From Sphingopyxis sp. MWB1 (GTDB lineage Bacteria; Pseudomonadota; Alphaproteobacteria; Sphingomonadales; Sphingomonadaceae), in assembly GCF_000763945.1 (NCBI RefSeq), contig NZ_JQFJ01000002.1:1426001-1490000 (forward strand): DNA of 64,000 nt. Reading direction: 5' to 3'. The translations under genes were made by a program, and so were the position numbers. Shown here piece by piece: positions 17,576 through 52,390 of this stretch (positions are counted from its first letter, which is position 1; each line of letters starts with the position of its first letter). Under the pieces are notes generated by a model, which was not told where the DNA came from, searched no databases, and was given only the letters and a program-made list of their open reading frames with translations.

Positions 17576-18937
17576 CTAATCGCGACCGAGCATCAGGTCA
17601 ACGAGTTCGCCGAGCCGGGCAAAGCCCGTGACTCCAATTCCCTTGACCGATTTCATTCCCTTCGGTCCCCATCCGGTTGAAAAACCAAGCTTTGCCGCCT
17701 CGCGCAGCCGCAGCGCATCATGCGCCACCGGGCGAACTTCGCCCGAAAGCGACAATTCGCCAAACACAATTGCATCCGATGGGACCGGCCGCTCGCTGAA
17801 TGCCGAAATCAGCGCCGCCGCCACCGCCAGATCGGCGGCGGGATCGGTCAGCCGATAGCCCCCCGCAATATTCAGATAGACTTCGGCGGCCCCCATTTGC
17901 AGCCCGCAGCGCGCCTCCAGCACTGCCAGCACCATCGCCAGTCGCCCGCTGTCCCAGCCGACGACGGCGCGACGCGGCGTCGCCCCGCTCGCCAGCCGCA
18001 CGGTCAGCGCCTGCACCTCGACCAGCACCGGGCGTGTGCCCTCCAGCGCAGGAAAGACGACCGACCCCGGTACGTCGCGGCTGCGGTCGGTCAGAAACAG
18101 GCTCGACGGATTGGACACTTCGCCCAGCCCATCCTCGGCCATGGCAAAGACGCCGATTTCGTCGGTGCCGCCAAAACGGTTCTTTACCGCGCGCAGAATG
18201 CGATATTGGTGGCTGCGCTCGCCCTCGAACGCCAGGACCGTATCGACCATATGTTCGAGCACGCGCGGCCCCGCGATCGTTCCGTCCTTGGTAACATGGC
18301 CGACGAGCACCAGCGCGGCATCGCTGTCCTTGGCATAACGGATCAGCTCCTGCGCGCTTGCGCGAACCTGGCTCACCGTGCCCGGCGCGCTGTCGATCAG
18401 GTCGCTGTGCATCGTCTGGATCGAATCGATCACGACGAAATCGGCGCCGCGCCCGTCGAGCGTCGCAAGGATATCCCGCACCGACGTCGCGCTCGCGAGC
18501 GCGACGGGCGAATCGCCCAGCCCCAAACGCTGCGCGCGCAGCCGCACCTGCGCCGCCGCCTCTTCGCCGCTGATATAGACGACCGACTTGCCGCTACGCG
18601 CGAGCCGCCCCGCCGCCTGCAACAGCAGCGTCGACTTTCCGATCCCTGGATCGCCGCCGATCAAGGTCGCCGATCCCGCAACGAAACCGCCGCCCAGCGC
18701 GCGGTCGAACTCGGCAATCCCGCACAGCATCCGGTCGGGCATGACGCTGTGTGCGTCCAGCGATTCCAGTGTGAGCGTGCGTCCGCCGCGCGACAGGTCG
18801 TGCTTCGCCGAAAAGGCGGTTTCGGCAGCCTCCTCGACGAGCGTGTTCCACTCGCCGCAATCGGCGCATTGCCCCTGCCAGCGATAGGTTGCAGACCCGC
18901 AATTCTGGCAAACATATTGGCGTTTAGCTTTGGCCAT
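17576..18937 (-). CDS. radA: DNA repair protein RadA
   Basis: A 453-residue RadA (Sms) branch-migration ATPase in recombinational repair. It has an N-terminal C4 zinc finger (CQNCG and CADCG, residues 10-30), Walker A GGDPGIGKST, the RadA-specific KNRFG motif, and a C-terminal Lon-protease-like domain with GGYRLTDPAADLAVAAALIS. MAKAKRQYVC at 18937 is the family start; the ATG 7 codons upstream is less likely. It heads the radA-cvpA-scaffold-kefB operon. Confidence 0.96.
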   Translation of the reverse strand: MAKAKRQYVCQNCGSATYRWQGQCADCGEWNTLVEEAAETAFSAKHDLSRGGRTLTLESLDAHSVMPDRMLCGIAEFDRALGGGFVAGSATLIGGDPGIGKSTLLLQAAGRLARSGKSVVYISGEEAAAQVRLRAQRLGLGDSPVALASATSVRDILATLDGRGADFVVIDSIQTMHSDLIDSAPGTVSQVRASAQELIRYAKDSDAALVLVGHVTKDGTIAGPRVLEHMVDTVLAFEGERSHQYRILRAVKNRFGGTDEIGVFAMAEDGLGEVSNPSSLFLTDRSRDVPGSVVFPALEGTRPVLVEVQALTVRLASGATPRRAVVGWDSGRLAMVLAVLEARCGLQMGAAEVYLNIAGGYRLTDPAADLAVAAALISAFSERPVPSDAIVFGELSLSGEVRPVAHDALRLREAAKLGFSTGWGPKGMKSVKGIGVTGFARLGELVDLMLGRD

Positions 18938-18999
18938 GGCTCCGCATAATCGGAACAAAGATGGAACGCCAGTCCTTTCGCCGCGTCCCTCCTTTCGCC

Positions 19000-30143: not shown

Positions 30144-30249
30144 GAGAGGCCCCTCAAACTGTCGGACGCACCGTTCATAGCGCGTTCGGCGCTGAACATA
30201 GGGTGAAAGGTGGAAAAGTCCAGAGGCGCGGCCCGCAGCGGCCTGCGCC

Positions 30250-44500: not shown

Positions 44501-45115
44501 TCAGGCCGGATAGGTCCAGACGCCATCGCGGGCGAGATTTTCCGCCGCGAAATCCCAGTTCAGCAGTTCATCGACCACCGCATCGACATAGGCGGGGCGG
44601 ACATTCTTGCGGTCGATATAATAGGCATGTTCCCACACATCGACGACGAGCAGCGGCTTGGTGCCCGAGGTCGCCTCGGTCCCGGCGTCGTGCGTGTCGG
44701 TGACCGACAGCTCGCCGTCCTTGGCGACCAGCCACGCCCAGCCCGACGCGAAATGATTGACGGCGGTTTCCTTCAGCTTCTTTTTCAGCTCGTCGAGCGA
44801 TCCGAAATCGCGGTCGATGGCGGCGGCCAGATCACCGGCGGGCGCGCTCTTCGACGGGCTCATGCTTTCCCAGTAAAAAGCGTGGTTCCACGACTGGGCG
44901 GCATTGTTGAACAGCCCCTTGTTGCCGCTGCTTTCGGCATGACGGATAATCTCTTCGAGGCTCTTGTCCGCAAGATCGGTGCCTTCGATGGCGGCATTCA
45001 CCTTGTCGACATAGGCTTTGTGATGCTTGCCATGGTGCGTCTGCAGCGTCTCGGCCGAAATATGCGGCGCCAGCGCATCATCGGCATAGGGAAGCGGGGG
45101 GTGAGCGATCGTCAT
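44501..45115 (-). CDS. sodB: Superoxide dismutase, Fe/Mn family
   Basis: A 204-residue Fe/Mn superoxide dismutase. Metal ligands lie in TLQTHHGKHHKAYV (His), SWNHAFYW (His), and DVWEHAYYIDRKN (Asp and His). The GLFNNAAQSWNH segment with Gln is the iron-type preference, so SodB is favoured, though metal type cannot be certain. A cytoplasmic protein; no signal peptide. Clear ribosome site GGAGACTGCC before the ATG. Single gene between sdaA and the ligase operon. Confidence 0.95.
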   Translation of the reverse strand: MTIAHPPLPYADDALAPHISAETLQTHHGKHHKAYVDKVNAAIEGTDLADKSLEEIIRHAESSGNKGLFNNAAQSWNHAFYWESMSPSKSAPAGDLAAAIDRDFGSLDELKKKLKETAVNHFASGWAWLVAKDGELSVTDTHDAGTEATSGTKPLLVVDVWEHAYYIDRKNVRPAYVDAVVDELLNWDFAAENLARDGVWTYPA

Positions 45116-45238
45116 GGCAGTCTCCTTTTTTGGTGTCGCCTCGCTAACTCGGTATCAAGAGCCACAGTTGCAACCCCATGACGCGGAAAAATTGTTCGAA
45201 AGTCCGCGGTTTTGCGCTTTCCCATTCGTCCGATGGGG

Positions 45239-46828
45239 TCAGGTCACCATCGCTTGCAATGTCGCGATCCGGTCGGCCTCCTCGGGGGGCTTGTCGCGGC
45301 GGATGCGCGATATGCGCGGAAAGCGCATCGCGAGGCCCGACTTGTGCCGCTTCGACGCGTGGATTGAATCGAACGCCACTTCGAGCACCAGCGTCTTTTC
45401 AACCTCGCGCACCGGGCCGAAGCGGTCGACCGTGTTGGTGCGCACGAATTTGTCGAGCCATTTCAGCTCCTCGTCGGTGAAGCCCGAATAGGCCTTGCCC
45501 ACGGGGAGCAATTCGCCCGCTTCGTTCCAGCAGCCGAAAGTATAATCCGAATAAAAGCTCGCGCGGCGGCCGTTGCCGCGCTGCGCATACATCATCACGC
45601 AATCGGCGGTCAGCGGGTCGCGCTTCCATTTATACCAGAGCCCCGCGCGCCGCCCGGCGACATAGGGCGCATCGCGCCGCTTGAGCATCACCCCCTCGAT
45701 CGCCGCATCGCGCCCGCCCGCGCGCTTTTCCGCTAGCTCCTCGAAATCGGCGGCCTCGACCAAGGGCGACAGGTCGAAATGGCTTGCGGCGAGGCGCGGG
45801 ACAAAGGCTTCGAGCTGCTGCCGCCGCGCCGTCCATGGCAAGCCGCGCAAATCCTCTCCATCGACCGCCAGAAGGTCATAGATACGGACAAAGGCTGGAG
45901 ATTCCGCCAGCATCTTCTTCGTCACCGTCTTGCGCCCCAGCCGCTGTTGCAGCGCGTTAAAGCTTGCCGCGCCGCCCTCTTCACCGCCCTGCGCCGCGCC
46001 GCGCACCAGCAGTTCGCCGTCGATCACCGCCTCCTGATCGAATGCCGCGACGAGTTCGGGAAAGGCCGCGCTGATCTCCTCGCCGCCGCGGCTGTAGATG
46101 CGCGTCTCGCCGCCGTCGCCACTGCCCGCATGCACGATCTGCACACGGATGCCGTCCCATTTCCACTCGGCGGCATAGTCGGCAAGATCGACGCTCCCCT
46201 CCTCGAGCGGATGCGCGAGCATGAAGGGGCGAAAGAAAGCGACATCAGCGAGGTCGGGCCGCGCCGCCCGCCCCTCGCCCCACGCGAACAGCGCCTCATA
46301 GGGCGGAGCAATGGCGTGCCAAAGCTCCTCGACATCGTCGATGCCAACGTCAAACGCCTGCGCGAACGCCTGCTTCGCAAGCCGCGCCGACACGCCGACG
46401 CGCATCCCGCCGAGCGCCATCTTGAGCAGCGCGTAGCGCCCGTCGGCATCGAGCCGGTCGAGCAGCCCGGTCAGCACGGCGGCGGCATTGCTCCGCGTGG
46501 CGGCCGACAGCGCGGCGACGGCGTCGGCGACGCTGATATCCTCCCTGATCGCCACTGCGTCCGGCCACAGCAGTGCCGCCGTCTCCGCCGTATCGCCGAC
46601 GAAATGCCGCGACAGACGAAACAATTCCTCGTCCACGCGCGTCGCGAGCAGCGCGCGCACTGTCCCCGCCTTCACCGCCGGAAAATCAAGCGCTTCGGTG
46701 AGCGCGGCGAGCGCCCAGCCGCGGTCGGGATCGGGGCTATGCTTCAGATAATCGACGATCAGCGCGAGCTTTGAATTGCGCGACCGCGTGTAGATCAGCC
46801 GGTCGATGAGCGCGGCAAAGGCTTTCAC
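45239..46828 (-). CDS. ATP-dependent DNA ligase, cisplatin-damage-response type
   Basis: A 529-residue ATP-dependent DNA ligase of the group called cisplatin damage response ligase (TIGR04120-like). An N-terminal helical domain (1-215) is followed by the nucleotidyltransferase KWDG at residues 223-226 (Lys223 is adenylated), and an OB-fold C-terminus with RIRRDKPPEEADRIATLQAM. A GTG start overlaps the exonuclease gene's stop by 4 bases (GTGA), so translation is coupled. It is the last gene of the DNA repair operon. It probably seals nicks in non-replicative repair. Confidence 0.92.
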   Translation of the reverse strand: MKAFAALIDRLIYTRSRNSKLALIVDYLKHSPDPDRGWALAALTEALDFPAVKAGTVRALLATRVDEELFRLSRHFVGDTAETAALLWPDAVAIREDISVADAVAALSAATRSNAAAVLTGLLDRLDADGRYALLKMALGGMRVGVSARLAKQAFAQAFDVGIDDVEELWHAIAPPYEALFAWGEGRAARPDLADVAFFRPFMLAHPLEEGSVDLADYAAEWKWDGIRVQIVHAGSGDGGETRIYSRGGEEISAAFPELVAAFDQEAVIDGELLVRGAAQGGEEGGAASFNALQQRLGRKTVTKKMLAESPAFVRIYDLLAVDGEDLRGLPWTARRQQLEAFVPRLAASHFDLSPLVEAADFEELAEKRAGGRDAAIEGVMLKRRDAPYVAGRRAGLWYKWKRDPLTADCVMMYAQRGNGRRASFYSDYTFGCWNEAGELLPVGKAYSGFTDEELKWLDKFVRTNTVDRFGPVREVEKTLVLEVAFDSIHASKRHKSGLAMRFPRISRIRRDKPPEEADRIATLQAMVT

Positions 46829-47847
46829 GCCTCCTCCTCCCCGCCCTCATCGTCGACATCGCGCCCGACCATGTGCAGCGCGCGCGCCTTGCGCTGGTGA
46901 AGCTCGCACCAGCGCAGCAGGCCGTCCTCGCTGCCGTGGGTGATCCAGCTTTCCTTCGGGTTCACCTCGGCAATCGTCGCGGTGAGTTCGTCCCAATCGG
47001 CATGGTCCGAAATGACGAGCGGCAGTTCGACCATCCGTTGACGCGCGCGCTGGCGAACGCGCATCCAGCCCGACGCCATGGCGGTGACCGGGTTCGGCAG
47101 CCGCCGCGACCAGCGATCGTTCAGCGCGGAGGGCGGCGCGAGCACAATCTGCCCCGCCATCTCCTCCTTGCCCGCCTCGCTCACCAGCCGCAGCGGCCCC
47201 AGATCGACGCCATGCTCGGCATAAAGCGTGCACATTTTCTCCAGCGCGCCGTGGATGAAGATCGGCGCGTCCCACCCCGCCGCGCGCAGTTCGGCAATCA
47301 CGCGCTGCGCCTTGCCGAGCGCATAGGCGCCGACGAGCACCGACCGGTCGGGCTCGGCGCGCACCGCCGAGATCAGCTTGGCGATCTCCTCGCCCGTAGG
47401 CGGGTGACGGAACACCGGCAGGCCAAAGGTCGCCTCGGTGATGAAAATGTCGCACGGCACCACCTCGAACGGCGCGCAGGTCGGGTCGGCGCGGCGCTTG
47501 TAGTCGCCGGTGACGACGATGCGCTCACCCGCATATTCCATCAAGATCTGCGCGCTGCCGAGCACATGCCCCGCCGGATGAAAGGAAAAACGCACCCCGC
47601 CGCGTTCAAAGCCGTCGCCATAGGCAAAGCCACGGTTCGCGCTTGCCGCGACATCGACGCCATAGCGCAGCGCCATGATCGCGAGTGTTTCGGGGGTCGC
47701 GAATACCGATGCGTGCCCGCTGCGCGCATGGTCGGCATGGCCGTGCGTCACCGCCGCGCGTTCGACGGGCCGCGACGGGTCGATCCACAAATCGGCGGGC
47801 TTCACATACAGCCCGTGCGGATGCGGTTCGAGCCAGGGCTTCGCCAT
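46825..47847 (-). CDS. Ligase-associated DNA exonuclease (metallo-beta-lactamase fold)
   Basis: A 340-residue MBL-fold nuclease of the ligase-associated exonuclease type (TIGR04122-like). The metal motif THGHADH is at 34-40, and other ligands are probably in HPAGHVLGSAQI, TGDYKRR and ISDHADW. It is related to beta-CASP-like enzymes that trim DNA ends. The ATG at 47847 overlaps the UdgX stop (TGATG). In some bacteria this gene sits beside an Lhr-Core helicase; no helicase of that kind is visible here. Confidence 0.88.
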   Translation of the reverse strand: MAKPWLEPHPHGLYVKPADLWIDPSRPVERAAVTHGHADHARSGHASVFATPETLAIMALRYGVDVAASANRGFAYGDGFERGGVRFSFHPAGHVLGSAQILMEYAGERIVVTGDYKRRADPTCAPFEVVPCDIFITEATFGLPVFRHPPTGEEIAKLISAVRAEPDRSVLVGAYALGKAQRVIAELRAAGWDAPIFIHGALEKMCTLYAEHGVDLGPLRLVSEAGKEEMAGQIVLAPPSALNDRWSRRLPNPVTAMASGWMRVRQRARQRMVELPLVISDHADWDELTATIAEVNPKESWITHGSEDGLLRWCELHQRKARALHMVGRDVDDEGGEEEA

Positions 47848-49274
47848 CAGGCGGCAAGCTTTCGCGCGCGGGCAAGGTCGGCGACAAAGGCTTCGCGCTC
47901 CCTCGCCGCGCGCTCGCGGTCCGGAAGCCGCAGGAGGTAAGAGGGGTGCACCGTCGCGACCAGCTTCGCCCCGCCCTCCAGCGCGTGCACCGCGCCGCGC
48001 ATCGACGCGATGCTCGCGCTCTTGCCCGTCACGCCGCGCAGCGCGCTTGCGCCAAGCGTGACGATCAGTTCGGGCTGGACGAGCGCGCGCTCCTTGTCGA
48101 GCCACCAGCGACAAACGTCGATCTCGCCCGCCGTCGGCGTCTGGTGGATCCGCCTTTTGCCGCGCGGCTGAAACTTGAAATGCTTGACCGCATTGGTGAG
48201 GAAAATCCGCCGCCGGTCGATCCCGGCTTCGTCCAGCGCCGCGTCGAGCAATTGCCCGGCGGGTCCAACGAAAGGACGCCCCTGCAAGTCTTCCTGATCG
48301 CCCGGCTGTTCACCGACCACCATGATGCGCGCGCCTTGAGGCCCCTCGCCCGCGACGCCCTGCGTCGCATCGCAATGGAGCGGGCAGCGCGTGCAGCGGT
48401 CGACCGCGTGGGCAAGCTCGCCCAGCGTCGCCACTTCATCTGTCGGGGTGCCGGTTTCGGCCACGCGCGTCCGCCATTTCTCCGTCCGGGGGTTCGCCAT
48501 CGAAACGGCCTCGGCGCGCATCCGTTCCACCCGCGCCTCGGCCCCGGCGAGCAGCGGCGCGATATCCTGCGCCTCGGGCAAATTGTGCCAATATTTCTTC
48601 GGCATTTCGGCGCGCATCGCCGCAATCTTGACGCGCGCGGGATTGAAGATCGCGCCATAATAGGTGCGCCATTGATCCTCGACGACATCGCTGACCGGCA
48701 CCTCGTCGCGCGTCCCGCCGGGACCGAAGCGGAGCTCGTCGTCGGCCCAGATCGCGCGCGCATCGGGGGTCACGATTGCCCAGTCCATGCCGGTGAAGCG
48801 CCGCTGGAAAAAGGGCGCGGTCAGGCGAAGGATACGGTGCGACGGTTCGAACCATGCCGCGAAACGCTCACGCCCGGCATCGTCGCCGATCCGGCGAAAG
48901 CGCACAAAGGCGTGCATCTTGTGAATGTCGCGGCGGATCGCCTTGTCGGCCTTCATCAGCCAATCGATATCGGCATCGGTGCGCCGCGCGAGCAATTGCT
49001 GGTCGCGCGCCGCGCGCCAGACGATACGGTAAAGCCGCGCGGGAACCTCGGCATCGCGGTGGCAGATCACGCGGTCGGCGATGACGAGCAATTCGCGCGA
49101 CACCGACACGCTCGCCTCGGCGCTCGCGGTTCCCGCATCGCCGAACAGCGACGCCCCCTCGCCTGCGCCGCGCCAGCTCACCGCCTCGGGCGGCACCCCG
49201 GCGGCGAGAAGCCCGCGCGCAGCGGCGCGCCATTCGGCAAAATCGCCGGGGGTCTCGAGCACCACCTCCCTCAC
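47847..49274 (-). CDS. UdgX-family uracil-DNA binding protein fused to a TIGR03915-type domain
   Basis: A 475-residue fusion. The N-terminal half (about 1-250) matches the TIGR03915-like putative DNA metabolism protein (DUF4130), with DIHKMHAFVRFRRIG and EPSHRILRLTAPFFQRRF. The C-terminal half is a UDG-fold protein with GEQPGDQED, CTRCPLH cluster-type Cys and the RIHQTP loop at 375-380. In UdgX the His of this loop (here His377) links covalently to the deoxyribose of uracil sites; that chemistry is known from UdgX family members. HPSYLLR near 443 is the second UDG motif. GTG start, GTGA overlap with the radical-SAM gene. Confidence 0.92.
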   Translation of the reverse strand: MREVVLETPGDFAEWRAAARGLLAAGVPPEAVSWRGAGEGASLFGDAGTASAEASVSVSRELLVIADRVICHRDAEVPARLYRIVWRAARDQQLLARRTDADIDWLMKADKAIRRDIHKMHAFVRFRRIGDDAGRERFAAWFEPSHRILRLTAPFFQRRFTGMDWAIVTPDARAIWADDELRFGPGGTRDEVPVSDVVEDQWRTYYGAIFNPARVKIAAMRAEMPKKYWHNLPEAQDIAPLLAGAEARVERMRAEAVSMANPRTEKWRTRVAETGTPTDEVATLGELAHAVDRCTRCPLHCDATQGVAGEGPQGARIMVVGEQPGDQEDLQGRPFVGPAGQLLDAALDEAGIDRRRIFLTNAVKHFKFQPRGKRRIHQTPTAGEIDVCRWWLDKERALVQPELIVTLGASALRGVTGKSASIASMRGAVHALEGGAKLVATVHPSYLLRLPDRERAAREREAFVADLARARKLAA

Positions 49275-50521
49275 AGGGCAAGCGCCAATTGTTCGGGCGG
49301 CGGCGCGAAACGCGCGCGCAGGTCGGCGCTGTCGGTCAGCATCCCCGGCCGCCAGTCGGGCGTCAGGATAAAGGGAAGCAATTTTTTAACCGATACGGTG
49401 ATTTTTCCCAGATCGGCGAGGCGAAGTTTACCCAGCCGCCGCGCACCGATGATCCGATCCACCGCGCGTGTGCCCAGCCCCGGAACGCGCAGCAGCATTT
49501 CGCGCGGCGCGCAGTTGATATCGACCGGAAAAGCTTCGCGCCGCTGCAGCGCCCAGGCAAGCTTGGGGTCGATCGCCAGGTCGAGCATGCCGCCTTGCGC
49601 GCCCGCCATGATCTCGGCGCGCTCGAAGCCATAGAAGCGCAGCAACCAGTCGGCCTGGTACAGCCGATGTTCGCGCATCAGGGGCGGGCGGACCGGCGGC
49701 AGGTCGCTGCTCGCGTCGGGGATCGGGCTGTATGCCGAATAATAGACGCGGCGCAGGCGATAGCCCGAATAGAGGTTCGCCGCGCTTTTCAATATATCAT
49801 CGTCGCGCGCCGCGTCGGCCCCGACGATCATCTGTGTCGATTGCCCCGCAGGCGCAAAACGCGGCGGCTTTGCCTTGCCGATCAACCGGCTTTTCGCGGC
49901 GTCGAGCACCTCGGCCTCGCGCGTGCGGACCGACGCCATCGTCTTGCGGATCGTCGCCGGCTTTTTCTCGGGCGCGAAATTGGCCAGCCCCGCCTCGGTC
50001 GGCAATTCGACATTGGTCGACAGCCGGTCGGCATAAATGCCCGCGAGTGCGATCAGCGCAGGATCCGCCCCCGCAATTGTCTTCAGATGGATATAGCCCT
50101 GAAAGCGATGCTCCTCGCGCAGCAGCCGCGCGACCTCGACCAGCTGTTCCATCGTATAATCTTCGGACCGGATGATCCCCGACGAAAGGAACAGCCCCTC
50201 GATATAATTGCGCTTGTAGAAATCGAGCGCGAGCCGCACGACCTCCTGCGGGTCGAAACGCGCACGCGGCACATTGCTCGACGCGCGATTGATACAGAAG
50301 CGGCAATCGTAAACGCAGAAATTGGTGAGCAATATCTTGAGGAGCGAGATGCAGCGCCCGTCGGGCGCATAGCTGTGGCAGATGCCCATGCCTTCGGTCG
50401 ACCCGATGCCCCCGGTCGCGGTCGAGTCCCGCTTGATCGTTCCCGAAGAGGCGCAGGAGGCGTCATATTTGGCGGCATCCGCCAATATCGCGAGCTTGGA
50501 CAAAAGATTCGGCTTGCTCAT
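49271..50521 (-). CDS. Putative DNA modification/repair radical SAM protein
   Basis: A 416-residue radical-SAM protein of the TIGR03916 type. The cluster motif C69VYDCRFC76 binds the 4Fe-4S cluster with SAM. An extra Cys pair lies upstream (CASSG, GICHSYAPDGRC). The C-terminal region has a helix-hairpin-helix DNA-binding segment (LLRVPGLGTRAVDRIIGARR). It would act on DNA or nucleotides; no substrate is established to my knowledge. It is the first gene of the four-gene operon and overlaps the UdgX fusion by 4 bases, a pairing known from TIGR03915/TIGR03916 co-occurrence. Confidence 0.9.
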   Translation of the reverse strand: MSKPNLLSKLAILADAAKYDASCASSGTIKRDSTATGGIGSTEGMGICHSYAPDGRCISLLKILLTNFCVYDCRFCINRASSNVPRARFDPQEVVRLALDFYKRNYIEGLFLSSGIIRSEDYTMEQLVEVARLLREEHRFQGYIHLKTIAGADPALIALAGIYADRLSTNVELPTEAGLANFAPEKKPATIRKTMASVRTREAEVLDAAKSRLIGKAKPPRFAPAGQSTQMIVGADAARDDDILKSAANLYSGYRLRRVYYSAYSPIPDASSDLPPVRPPLMREHRLYQADWLLRFYGFERAEIMAGAQGGMLDLAIDPKLAWALQRREAFPVDINCAPREMLLRVPGLGTRAVDRIIGARRLGKLRLADLGKITVSVKKLLPFILTPDWRPGMLTDSADLRARFAPPPEQLALAL

Positions 50522-50599
50522 TCCTTGGCTTTAGCAGAGAGAACAAAAAAAGAACACTGTGTTTGAGGGTGACGATCCTATTCCAGCAAATTGCGCGAC

Positions 50600-50622
50600 C
50601 CCCGGCGAAAGCCGGAGTCCAG
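50600..50622. repeat. Intergenic repeat between the repair operon and the kinase gene
   Basis: CCCCGGCGAAAGCCGGAGTC with CAG at the end is a small hairpin repeat (CCGGC-GAAA-GCCGG) of a type common in alphaproteobacterial intergenic regions. The 183-base gap contains no visible gene. Confidence 0.65.
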
Positions 50623-50704
50623 AGCGGGACAGCGCTACGCAGCGAAACCCTTGGCCTTGCTCTCTATCTGTGGCCCTAGGGGACAGCGAGAGCCGATCGG
50701 CCCC

Positions 50705-52240
50705 TCACGCCTCCTGCCAGCGCGCAGGCAGGCTGATCTCGCACACCAGCCCCGTCGGCTCCCACCGCCGTTCGATCGTTCCGCCCAGATTGTTGCGGAC
50801 GCTGCGTTCCATCAGCAAGGTGCCAAAGCTGGTGCGCTCTGGGGGGATCACTTCGCCTTCCCCGCCCGTCTCGGTCCAGCGCAGCCGGAACTGGCGCTGT
50901 TCGACATTTTCGTCATCCTGCGACCATTGAACATCGACGCGGCCATGTTCGGTCGACAAGGCGCCATGCTTGACCGCATTGGTCGCCAGCTCGTTGAAGA
51001 GCAGCGCCATGGAGACCAGGGCATTTTCCGGTAACAGTAGGTCAGGGCCTTCCCAGCGGATGCGCGGAAAGGCGGCCTCGACCTCGCGCAACAGCGCATG
51101 AATCGAGCCGGTGAGGAAATTGGCGCCCAGCAAGACATTTTGCGCACGGTTGAGCGCGTCGAGCCGGCTGCTGATCCGGTCGACATAGTCTTCGACGTCG
51201 CGCGAATTATGCCGGGTCAAGGAAATGATGGCGCCCACGGTGGCAAAAAGGTTCCGCATTCGGTGGTGCAATTCGCGCATCAGCAAATTGGCATTTTCCT
51301 GGCGGCTCTTCTGCTCGGTAATGTCGATGTTGATACCGGTCAGCACCGCTTCATTGCTGCGCACATCCCAATCCGCCCGCCCGGCAAGCCAGCGCACCCC
51401 GCGGTCGGGATGAAGGACGCGGAAATCGCTCGAATAAGGGACACCATTGCCGATGGCGTCGTCGAGCGCGGCGCGCACCTTGTCGCGGTCATCGGGATGA
51501 ATACGTTCCATGGCCGCGTCCGCAGTCGTCAACCGCTCATAATCGCCGCCCCATAATTCGGCGGTGGCCCCGCGCCATTTCAATCCTCTTTTATCGGGAT
51601 CAAGCTGCCAGATGGCCACGCTCGAAAAATCAAGCGCGCGCTCCAGCATATGGCGCGTTTCATCGCGCTGGAAAGCGGTGCGGCGCAATTCGGCCTCGGC
51701 CATGACAATCGCCGCAAAATCTTCCAGCCGCTGCATTCCCCGCGCATCGGGGGCTTCGCGCGCCTTGCGATCAATGATGCATAAAGTGCCGATGACCGCG
51801 TCATTGGGCGCACGAAGGGGAACCCCGGCGTAAAAACGGATGTGGGGATCATCCCTTACCAGGGGATTGTCGCGAAAACGCGGGTCTTCCAGGGCGTTCG
51901 AAACCACCACTGGCCGCTCTTCCACCACCACATGCTGGCAAAAGCTGATGTCCCGCGGGGTTTCCGGAACATCCAGCCCATGCACCGATTTAAACCATTG
52001 TCGGCGGTCATCGACCAGCACCACCAACGCGATCGGCACATCGAACAAATCGGCGACCAACGCAGTCACCCGGTCGAATGCCTGTTCGGGGGACGTGTCC
52101 AGCAGCCGATATTCACGCAGCGTTTCCAGCCGCTCCTGTTCGCGCATATCGTCTTGACGCTGGTTGCTGACTGCCAAATCCCGCCCCTCTTTATCCGTCG
52201 AGGCCGTCATATCCTTCTGCCTCTCGGATTGCTCTGCCAT
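50705..52240 (-). CDS. HWE-family sensor histidine kinase with GAF and PAS domains
   Basis: A kinase of about 511 residues (if started at 52240). A GAF domain (about 35-180) contains FCQHVVVEERPVVVSNALED, a PAS/PAC domain spans about 200-310 (WRGATAELWGGDYERL, VLTGINIDITEQK), and the HWE kinase part has the H-box ELHHRMRN at 323-330, then NELATNAVKHGAL and a WTE-type motif (RWTETGG) typical of HWE kinases. Such kinases phosphorylate PhyR-type regulators. No transmembrane segment, so it senses a cytoplasmic signal. Start is uncertain; 52210 and 52294 are alternatives. Divergent from phyR. Confidence 0.9.
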   Translation of the reverse strand: MAEQSERQKDMTASTDKEGRDLAVSNQRQDDMREQERLETLREYRLLDTSPEQAFDRVTALVADLFDVPIALVVLVDDRRQWFKSVHGLDVPETPRDISFCQHVVVEERPVVVSNALEDPRFRDNPLVRDDPHIRFYAGVPLRAPNDAVIGTLCIIDRKAREAPDARGMQRLEDFAAIVMAEAELRRTAFQRDETRHMLERALDFSSVAIWQLDPDKRGLKWRGATAELWGGDYERLTTADAAMERIHPDDRDKVRAALDDAIGNGVPYSSDFRVLHPDRGVRWLAGRADWDVRSNEAVLTGINIDITEQKSRQENANLLMRELHHRMRNLFATVGAIISLTRHNSRDVEDYVDRISSRLDALNRAQNVLLGANFLTGSIHALLREVEAAFPRIRWEGPDLLLPENALVSMALLFNELATNAVKHGALSTEHGRVDVQWSQDDENVEQRQFRLRWTETGGEGEVIPPERTSFGTLLMERSVRNNLGGTIERRWEPTGLVCEISLPARWQEA

Positions 52241-52390
52241 GAATCGGGTTCCCAAAAAAGCGTCTCGGACCGTCAATATGGAAAAGCGTTTCATTCCATT
52301 TGCTTATCACGGCCTCCTGGCGCCACTGAAGGATTCTACGCATTTCCTCCCTACAAGTTGCAGGAGACAAAGCGTCTTTTGAATTAAATG

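Follow-up and report, generated by a model that had tools for sequence, protein, structure and literature searches.

A conserved Sphingopyxis operon that joins a radical SAM/UdgX unit to an exonuclease-ligase pair behind a predicted SOS promoter

Four overlapping genes in a stretch of the Sphingopyxis sp. MWB1 genome (64,000 nucleotides of contig NZ_JQFJ01000002.1, positions 1,426,001 to 1,490,000; hereafter the window) encode a radical SAM protein, a fusion of a DUF4130 domain with the uracil-DNA glycosylase (UDG)-type domain UdgX, an exonuclease and a DNA ligase, and they raise the question whether such compactness reflects a single repair pathway, as the initial annotation of the locus had proposed, or two repair units brought under a common promoter. 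The four genes are a real, conserved operon and a new arrangement of known parts, and we consider it rather probable that this is an SOS-inducible repair operon formed by regulatory capture. Of the earlier single-pathway proposal, the compact unit, the repair role and, as judged from its sequence, the real UdgX were retained, while one dedicated pathway was not, since the two modules lie apart in most relatives.

All four genes are on the minus strand. Gene 1 (49271..50521, ATG start, 416 aa) encodes a radical SAM protein of family TIGR03916 (rSAM_link_UDG; NCBIfam score 550.5 bits) and gene 2 (47847-49274, GTG start, 475 aa) the fusion protein, whose N-terminal TIGR03915/DUF4130 domain (residues 1-236, 48567..49274; 182 bits) is followed by the UdgX domain (TIGR03914, 47847..48566; 317.4 bits). 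Gene 3 (46825..47847, ATG at 47847, 340 aa) specifies the ligase-associated DNA damage response exonuclease TIGR04122, of metallo-beta-lactamase/beta-CASP type (463.2 bits), and gene 4 (45239..46828, GTG start, 529 aa) the LigB-type ATP-dependent DNA ligase TIGR04120 (763.8 bits). All five family matches exceeded the curated NCBIfam cut-offs, and the assignments first made from the letters alone were thus borne out, as were the coordinates, the strand and the tiny overlaps, which proved exact. The overlaps measure 4, 1 and 4 bases: GTGA between genes 1 and 2 (49274-49271), TGATG with one base in common at 47847 between genes 2 and 3, and again GTGA between genes 3 and 4 (46828-46825). Junctions of the same kinds (G/A/T-TGA, TGATG and GTGA) were repeated in 47/47 intact Sphingopyxis loci examined (the 50 intact genomes minus the window itself and two contigs starting inside the operon), and the overlap arrangement is therefore not due to chance. 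A sigma-70 promoter scan of positions 45000-50900, uninformative for this organism, found none. The initial annotation had also remarked that no Lhr-like helicase accompanies the exonuclease and the ligase, which is true of the locus; yet the same genome encodes a ligase-associated Lhr helicase (TIGR04121, 1071.6 bits) at a distance of ~435 kb from the operon (contig positions 1911284-1913626, vs. 1471239-1476521 for the operon).

Conservation of the gene order, which had been put forward as a check on the proposal, was found within the genus and not outside it. Among 80 Sphingopyxis genomes the radical SAM gene was detected in 53, the exonuclease above cut-off in 72 and both in 52, and the tight four-gene order was present in 50 of these 52. 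The operon occupies a syntenic slot between an HWE histidine kinase gene (50705..52294, minus strand) and an Fe/Mn superoxide dismutase gene (44501..45115, minus strand), both outside the operon; in a few loci one of these two markers was out of view at a contig or fetch edge. The 22 exonuclease-bearing genomes without the tight order comprise 20 that lack the radical SAM gene and two further cases, G180, where the UdgX module has been relocated and the slot keeps exonuclease and ligase, and the outgroup-like G196, where the UdgX module stands alone in the slot and exonuclease, ligase and lhr are elsewhere. The exonuclease regions of all 20 were fetched, and 18 of them are slots holding exonuclease and ligase with neither radical SAM nor DUF4130, 13 also devoid of UdgX and 5 retaining it (L092, L095, L097, L103, L199). 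In the remaining two, filed in the genus (L104, L105), the exonuclease adjoins a divergently oriented lhr and no ligase match was present in the 15 kb fetched; UdgX was thus missing from the exonuclease locus in 15 of the 20. The joint loss of radical SAM and DUF4130 from 18 loci that kept exonuclease and ligase indicates that the latter pair is independent of the UdgX module. On a quick maximum-likelihood tree of the slot, built from 69 rows of exonuclease-ligase and flanking proteins (LG+G4, SH-aLRT support only), the state must have switched between intact and non-intact at least 11 times, and starred branches force 9 of these switches; the 19 non-intact rows include G180, which is a relocation. 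Such counts cannot separate gain from loss; the changes are nonetheless read as losses because like junctions recur in 47/47 intact loci.

The LexA motif of Alphaproteobacteria is given as GTTC-N7-GTTC in PMC8565304, and a box of this type, GTTCTTTTTTTGTTC (50541..50555, minus strand), precedes the ATG of gene 1 by ~20 nt. A single site in the window proves little, and the claim of SOS control therefore rests on positional conservation. At -32 to -35 the box was found in 47/47 intact Sphingopyxis loci examined, in addition to the window. In a second sample, the best 80 of 587 confirmed radical SAM relatives as chosen by the radical SAM protein (hereafter the named loci, 5 of which are Sphingopyxis also included in the genus sample and not independent of it), the box or its complement GAAC-N7-GAAC lay near the radical SAM start in 70/80, vs. 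~1.5 expected from its frequency in the same loci. Eight of the ten named loci without a box are Xanthomonadaceae/Lysobacteraceae by record title, a group whose LexA motif is different. Away from the operon the box was absent from 9/10 stand-alone UdgX genes, from the promoters of 40 exonuclease genes (0/40) and from those of 10 lhr genes (0/10), the 40 exonuclease genomes being hand-picked, 20 among the 95 non-genus genomes of a family sample and 20 from a phylum sample (G431 of the same family, the others of the same class). Where only exonuclease and ligase are left in the slot (13 slots plus G180, 14 in all), the box was kept ahead of the exonuclease in 9/14. With a LexA-type box preceding gene 1, the DNA-repair role is strengthened, and a DNA-damage switch probably turns on the four-gene unit. 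A second box in the window (18953-18967, minus strand) coincides with the start of a gene identified by eye as RadA-like (17576-18958) and fits SOS control of radA, which is listed among the SOS genes induced in Sphingopyxis granuli TFA (PMC6472365); a third exact match (30173-30187, plus strand) may be chance.

By its sequence, the C-terminal domain of the fusion is a true UdgX. The identity proposed for it, with the loop RIHQTP and His377, was upheld by the C-terminal alignment and by the presence of all UdgX-defining motifs: motif A, GEQPG, at residues 321-325, the R-loop KRRIH at 373-377, followed by QTP and ending in the predicted nucleophilic His377, and motif B, HPSYLLR (HPSxLLR), at 443-449. 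In an alignment of the window with 79 of the 80 named loci (L056 was left out, having no DUF4130 match), the column of His377 holds histidine in 73/80 rows and a gap in the remaining 7. The closest sequence matches of the domain in the PDB are UdgX chains (6ajo, E 2.5e-52). Variants occur in Sphingopyxis slots that have kept UdgX, which reads KRRLH in L092, L095, L103 and L097, the last with GEPPG for GEQPG. The UdgX half of Sphingopyxis sp. PET50 (L011 11959-12671, L106 9139-9851), which is displaced, is matched as two adjoining segments (query 1-118 and 119-237), and the reading frame that opens with DUF4130 comes to 404 aa; gene disruption or an error in sequencing is the probable cause.

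How firmly the parts belong together was assessed across 299 genomes of the phylum sample, in which the radical SAM gene was present in 53, DUF4130 in 56, UdgX in 52 and the exonuclease in 81. DUF4130 accompanied radical SAM in 53/53 genomes, and in 79/80 of the named loci it lay near it, while 14 DUF4130 genomes were without UdgX and 10 UdgX genomes without DUF4130. Radical SAM and DUF4130 therefore form a nearly fixed pair, with UdgX as a separable partner and the exonuclease as part of another unit. The sole breaks of the pairing in the 299 genomes are three with DUF4130 and no radical SAM match, all of one genus code (G391, G407, G475; g104), and adjacency is not invariable, radical SAM and DUF4130-UdgX being ~0.8 and 1.5 kb apart in two Sphingomonas metagenome-assembled genomes (L045, L081). 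Exonuclease and ligase followed directly behind UdgX in 4/80 named loci, all four Sphingopyxis; these four and PET50 are the five shared with the genus sample. The exonuclease was found within 20 kb of lhr in 32/96 family-sample genomes with both, always on opposite strands and in 28 cases less than 1 kb away.

The UdgX module rarely occurs without the exonuclease. In the phylum sample the latter was detected in 47/53 radical SAM genomes (6/53 lacking it) vs. 34/246 others, and in 49/52 UdgX genomes vs. 32/247 others; by family code (at least 61, the highest code seen) it accompanied UdgX in 14/14 and radical SAM in 12/14. In the family sample of 119 genomes it was present in 78/81 genomes with radical SAM, at a distance of 20 kb or less in 7/78, two of the seven being Sphingopyxis. 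For other genera, with mean genome sizes assumed and neither contig breaks nor relatedness taken into account, radical SAM and exonuclease lay within 20 kb in 5/76 (expected ~1.0, Poisson 0.004) and within 5 kb in 2/45 (expected 0.14, Poisson 0.009), so that physical proximity outside Sphingopyxis is modestly enriched; on plasmid pP97_a of Phaeobacter porticola the two gene pairs are ~3.3 kb apart. As a control we used Ku, a repair gene with, to our knowledge, no link to these families, which gave odds ratios of 3.2 with radical SAM and 20 with the exonuclease, while that between radical SAM and exonuclease was 26 overall, 39 in Ku-negative genomes and 4, non-significant, in Ku-positive ones. 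As the exonuclease also tracks Ku, part of the co-occurrence reflects general repair richness; its use as proof of one pathway was rejected on this ground, and what it supports is a looser, one-way and confounded link between the modules. The radical SAM gene was also met in 158 plasmid records (58 of Phaeobacter), 142 of them typed as non-mobilizable (e.g., NZ_CP016365.1, NZ_CP041158.1), the unit being carried on plasmids of Rhodobacterales among others. In plasmid stretches of ~25 kb each from Leisingera and Paracoccus yeei, the radical SAM-UdgX pair was present, and no gene of the stretch was annotated as an exonuclease or ligase belonging to these families.

These sequence comparisons lend good support to regulatory capture; the biochemical pathway is what we infer from the protein families. 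Elsewhere, exonuclease and ligase are found away from the UdgX unit, beside lhr in about one third of the family genomes, and have no SOS box; in a forebear of most Sphingopyxis they would have come to sit directly behind the LexA-boxed radical SAM/DUF4130-UdgX unit. Overlapping codons would have coupled the pair to the UdgX unit and hence to the same promoter, and the radical SAM-DUF4130 part would later have been lost many times, with exonuclease and ligase staying behind, often with the box. Upon DNA damage, cleavage of LexA would lead to the production of all four proteins. UdgX would remove uracil or a related base and attach itself through His377 to the abasic sugar at C1', which would keep the fusion protein at the lesion. 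There the radical SAM-DUF4130 pair might carry out a radical reaction, either with the lesion or with the adduct; the exonuclease could then trim the excision end for the ligase to seal, and Lhr, encoded far away, would also take part. Exonuclease and ligase presumably have additional work of their own, independent of UdgX.

Several observations weigh against this reconstruction. The box was missing from 5/14 of the exonuclease-ligase slots, in which the exonuclease starts no more than ~20 nt after the stop codon of the kinase, and among the five slots where UdgX was kept and radical SAM/DUF4130 are gone it was present in 2/5 and absent in 3/5. GTTC-N7-GTTC occurs three times in the 64-kb window vs. 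1.35 expected. A ligase match lay near the exonuclease in 6/10 fetched loci outside the Sphingopyxis slot (present in L019, L032, L109, L111, L113 and L115, not in L104, L105, L112 and L114), and the surveys above counted the exonuclease, not the ligase. The proposed order, capture first and loss afterwards, depends on parsimony and a single outgroup row with a long branch. Finally, the anoxic transcriptome of S. granuli lists induced SOS genes in a selected table that does not include the four-gene operon, and the words "ligase", "exonuclease" and "uracil" are absent from the main text of that source (PMC6472365).

A dedicated pathway, in which UdgX cross-links lesions, the radical SAM protein prepares them and exonuclease and ligase exist to excise and reseal those cross-links, would account for the tight coupling in the window, for a radical SAM-exonuclease proximity above expectation in other genera and for the company that UdgX keeps with the exonuclease (49/52 vs. 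32/247 and 14/14 family codes), which extends to 8/10 of the UdgX genomes without DUF4130. The exonuclease, however, persists without radical SAM in 20 Sphingopyxis genomes and without UdgX in 32 of the phylum sample, and in the Ku control it tracks another repair gene too, which makes this pathway improbable as a whole; similarly, we regard as doubtful the idea that covalent protein-DNA adducts of the UdgX type are resolved by the exonuclease-LigB(-Lhr) cluster. That a rearrangement simply joined two unrelated repair units, whose order was then kept by descent with no functional or regulatory advantage, would agree with a tight arrangement in one genus only, with modules mostly distant elsewhere and with the repeated break-up of the operon. 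Neutrality is harder to reconcile with overlaps kept in 47/47 loci, a box kept in 9/14 slots that have lost the upstream genes and recurrent proximity elsewhere, and we therefore hold it, too, to be an unlikely explanation.

The patchy distribution of the unit, its 158 plasmid records and the words "DNA modification" in an NCBI family name would suit a DNA-modification or anti-phage system, with radical SAM and DUF4130 hypermodifying DNA and UdgX attacking unmodified or uracil-containing foreign DNA. At E 0.01 none of the four proteins had a PADLOC match, and this result together with the repair-type promoter box leads us to rate such a system as very improbable; a search of viral contigs with a single protein, which reaches close relatives only, returned one relative. 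The contig in question (L151, IMG/VR, 12613 bases) encodes a radical SAM protein of 66% identity and may be host DNA. SOS-inducible repair by regulatory capture remains the explanation that we favour.

The two proteins at the head of the operon were further considered through their conserved residues and predicted folds. The radical SAM protein carries CX3CX2C at Cys 69/73/76 and a partial TIM barrel, and so qualifies as a member of its superfamily, whereas the helix-hairpin-helix segment attributed to it in the initial annotation is represented by a weak Pfam HHH_3 match only (residues 332-362, E 0.0039), below cut-off. Three more cysteines (23, 48, 57) ahead of the motif are invariant in 42/42 rows and may hold an auxiliary cluster, in a model in which residues 24-45 are poorly predicted. 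In that model (42 rows, pLDDT 83.2), lipoyl synthase and HydE are the nearest among the listed neighbours, which also include biotin synthase, MqnE and others; SplB is not among them, and unlisted families are not thereby excluded. The predicted structure of DUF4130 (61 rows, pLDDT 89.7) resembles, with middling scores, mostly proteins of DHH type, namely PAP phosphatase, RecJ, Cdc45, family II pyrophosphatase and DhhP, which we take to belong to a common DHH superfamily. None of the residues conserved in the 61 rows forms the DHH catalytic motif, and a PDB sequence search with DUF4130 gave no convincing relative (best E 0.022). Sequence kinship with DHH proteins was considered and rejected, no DHH family being listed in a Pfam scan of the 61 members at E 10. 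Given the middling fold scores and the lack of a conserved DHH motif, the suggestion that DUF4130 could be a DNA- or nucleotide-binding scaffold of the DHH/RecJ kind is kept as a lead only. The link of DUF4130 to radical SAM and UDG proteins has already been published, in a figure legend.

In our literature searches, which cover few subscription papers and so give weak evidence of absence, neither the four-gene operon nor a pairing of UdgX with radical SAM was found, and the word "operon" was absent from the main text of the UdgX papers searched. SOS control of a glycosylase operon has already been published; new, as far as these searches go, are its extension to the exonuclease and ligase, the joining of the two units behind a single LexA-type box and the persistence of this arrangement within one genus, as well as the recurrent loss of the front part and the fold leads. 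The operon naturally places UdgX and LigB/exonuclease, both of obscure role, under one predicted SOS switch, and, set beside the 20 sister genomes with the exonuclease and without the radical SAM gene, it makes a ready test bed. It also offers a case of genes that apparently gained a damage-response promoter via operon fusion and that often retained it when the genes originally behind it disappeared. If the exonuclease-LigB(-Lhr) cluster does resolve UdgX adducts, an idea rated above as doubtful, Sphingopyxis would have wired uracil-site suicide capture, radical SAM-DUF4130 chemistry, trimming and ligation into one SOS operon.

Compared with known systems, the window protein has the motifs GEQPG, KRRIH and HPSxLLR in common with UdgX of Mycobacterium smegmatis (PMC10359453). 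UdgX serves as a uracil-sensing tool, and its physiological role is called largely unknown in that source. Unlike the mycobacterial protein, the UdgX of the window is fused to DUF4130 and shares an operon with radical SAM, exonuclease and ligase. The TIGR03914/TIGR03915/TIGR03916 set is represented in full, all three models matching above cut-off with like neighbours, and to it the window adds fold matches of DHH/RecJ type for DUF4130 and to lipoyl synthase/HydE for the radical SAM protein. COG4277 is presumably this same radical SAM/HhH family. A two-gene uracil-DNA glycosylase operon under SOS regulation, COG1573-COG4277, has been predicted for Bacteroidetes, and the same source cites it as reported for Verrucomicrobia and Alphaproteobacteria (PMC8565304). 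Our unit likewise places a UDG-type gene and its partner under a LexA-type box, here as radical SAM followed by DUF4130-UdgX, but differs in extending into the exonuclease and ligase genes. A gene cluster of LigB, Lhr-Core, MPE and a metallo-beta-lactamase exonuclease was reportedly described by Ejaz and Shuman in 2018. According to PMC10140301, neither the exact role of this cluster nor the damage on which it acts is known. As in that cluster, the TIGR04122 and TIGR04120 genes of the window adjoin, with a 4-nt overlap (the families being equated by name), whereas in Sphingopyxis sp. MWB1 Lhr is ~435 kb off and exonuclease and ligase are attached to a UdgX unit with an SOS box.

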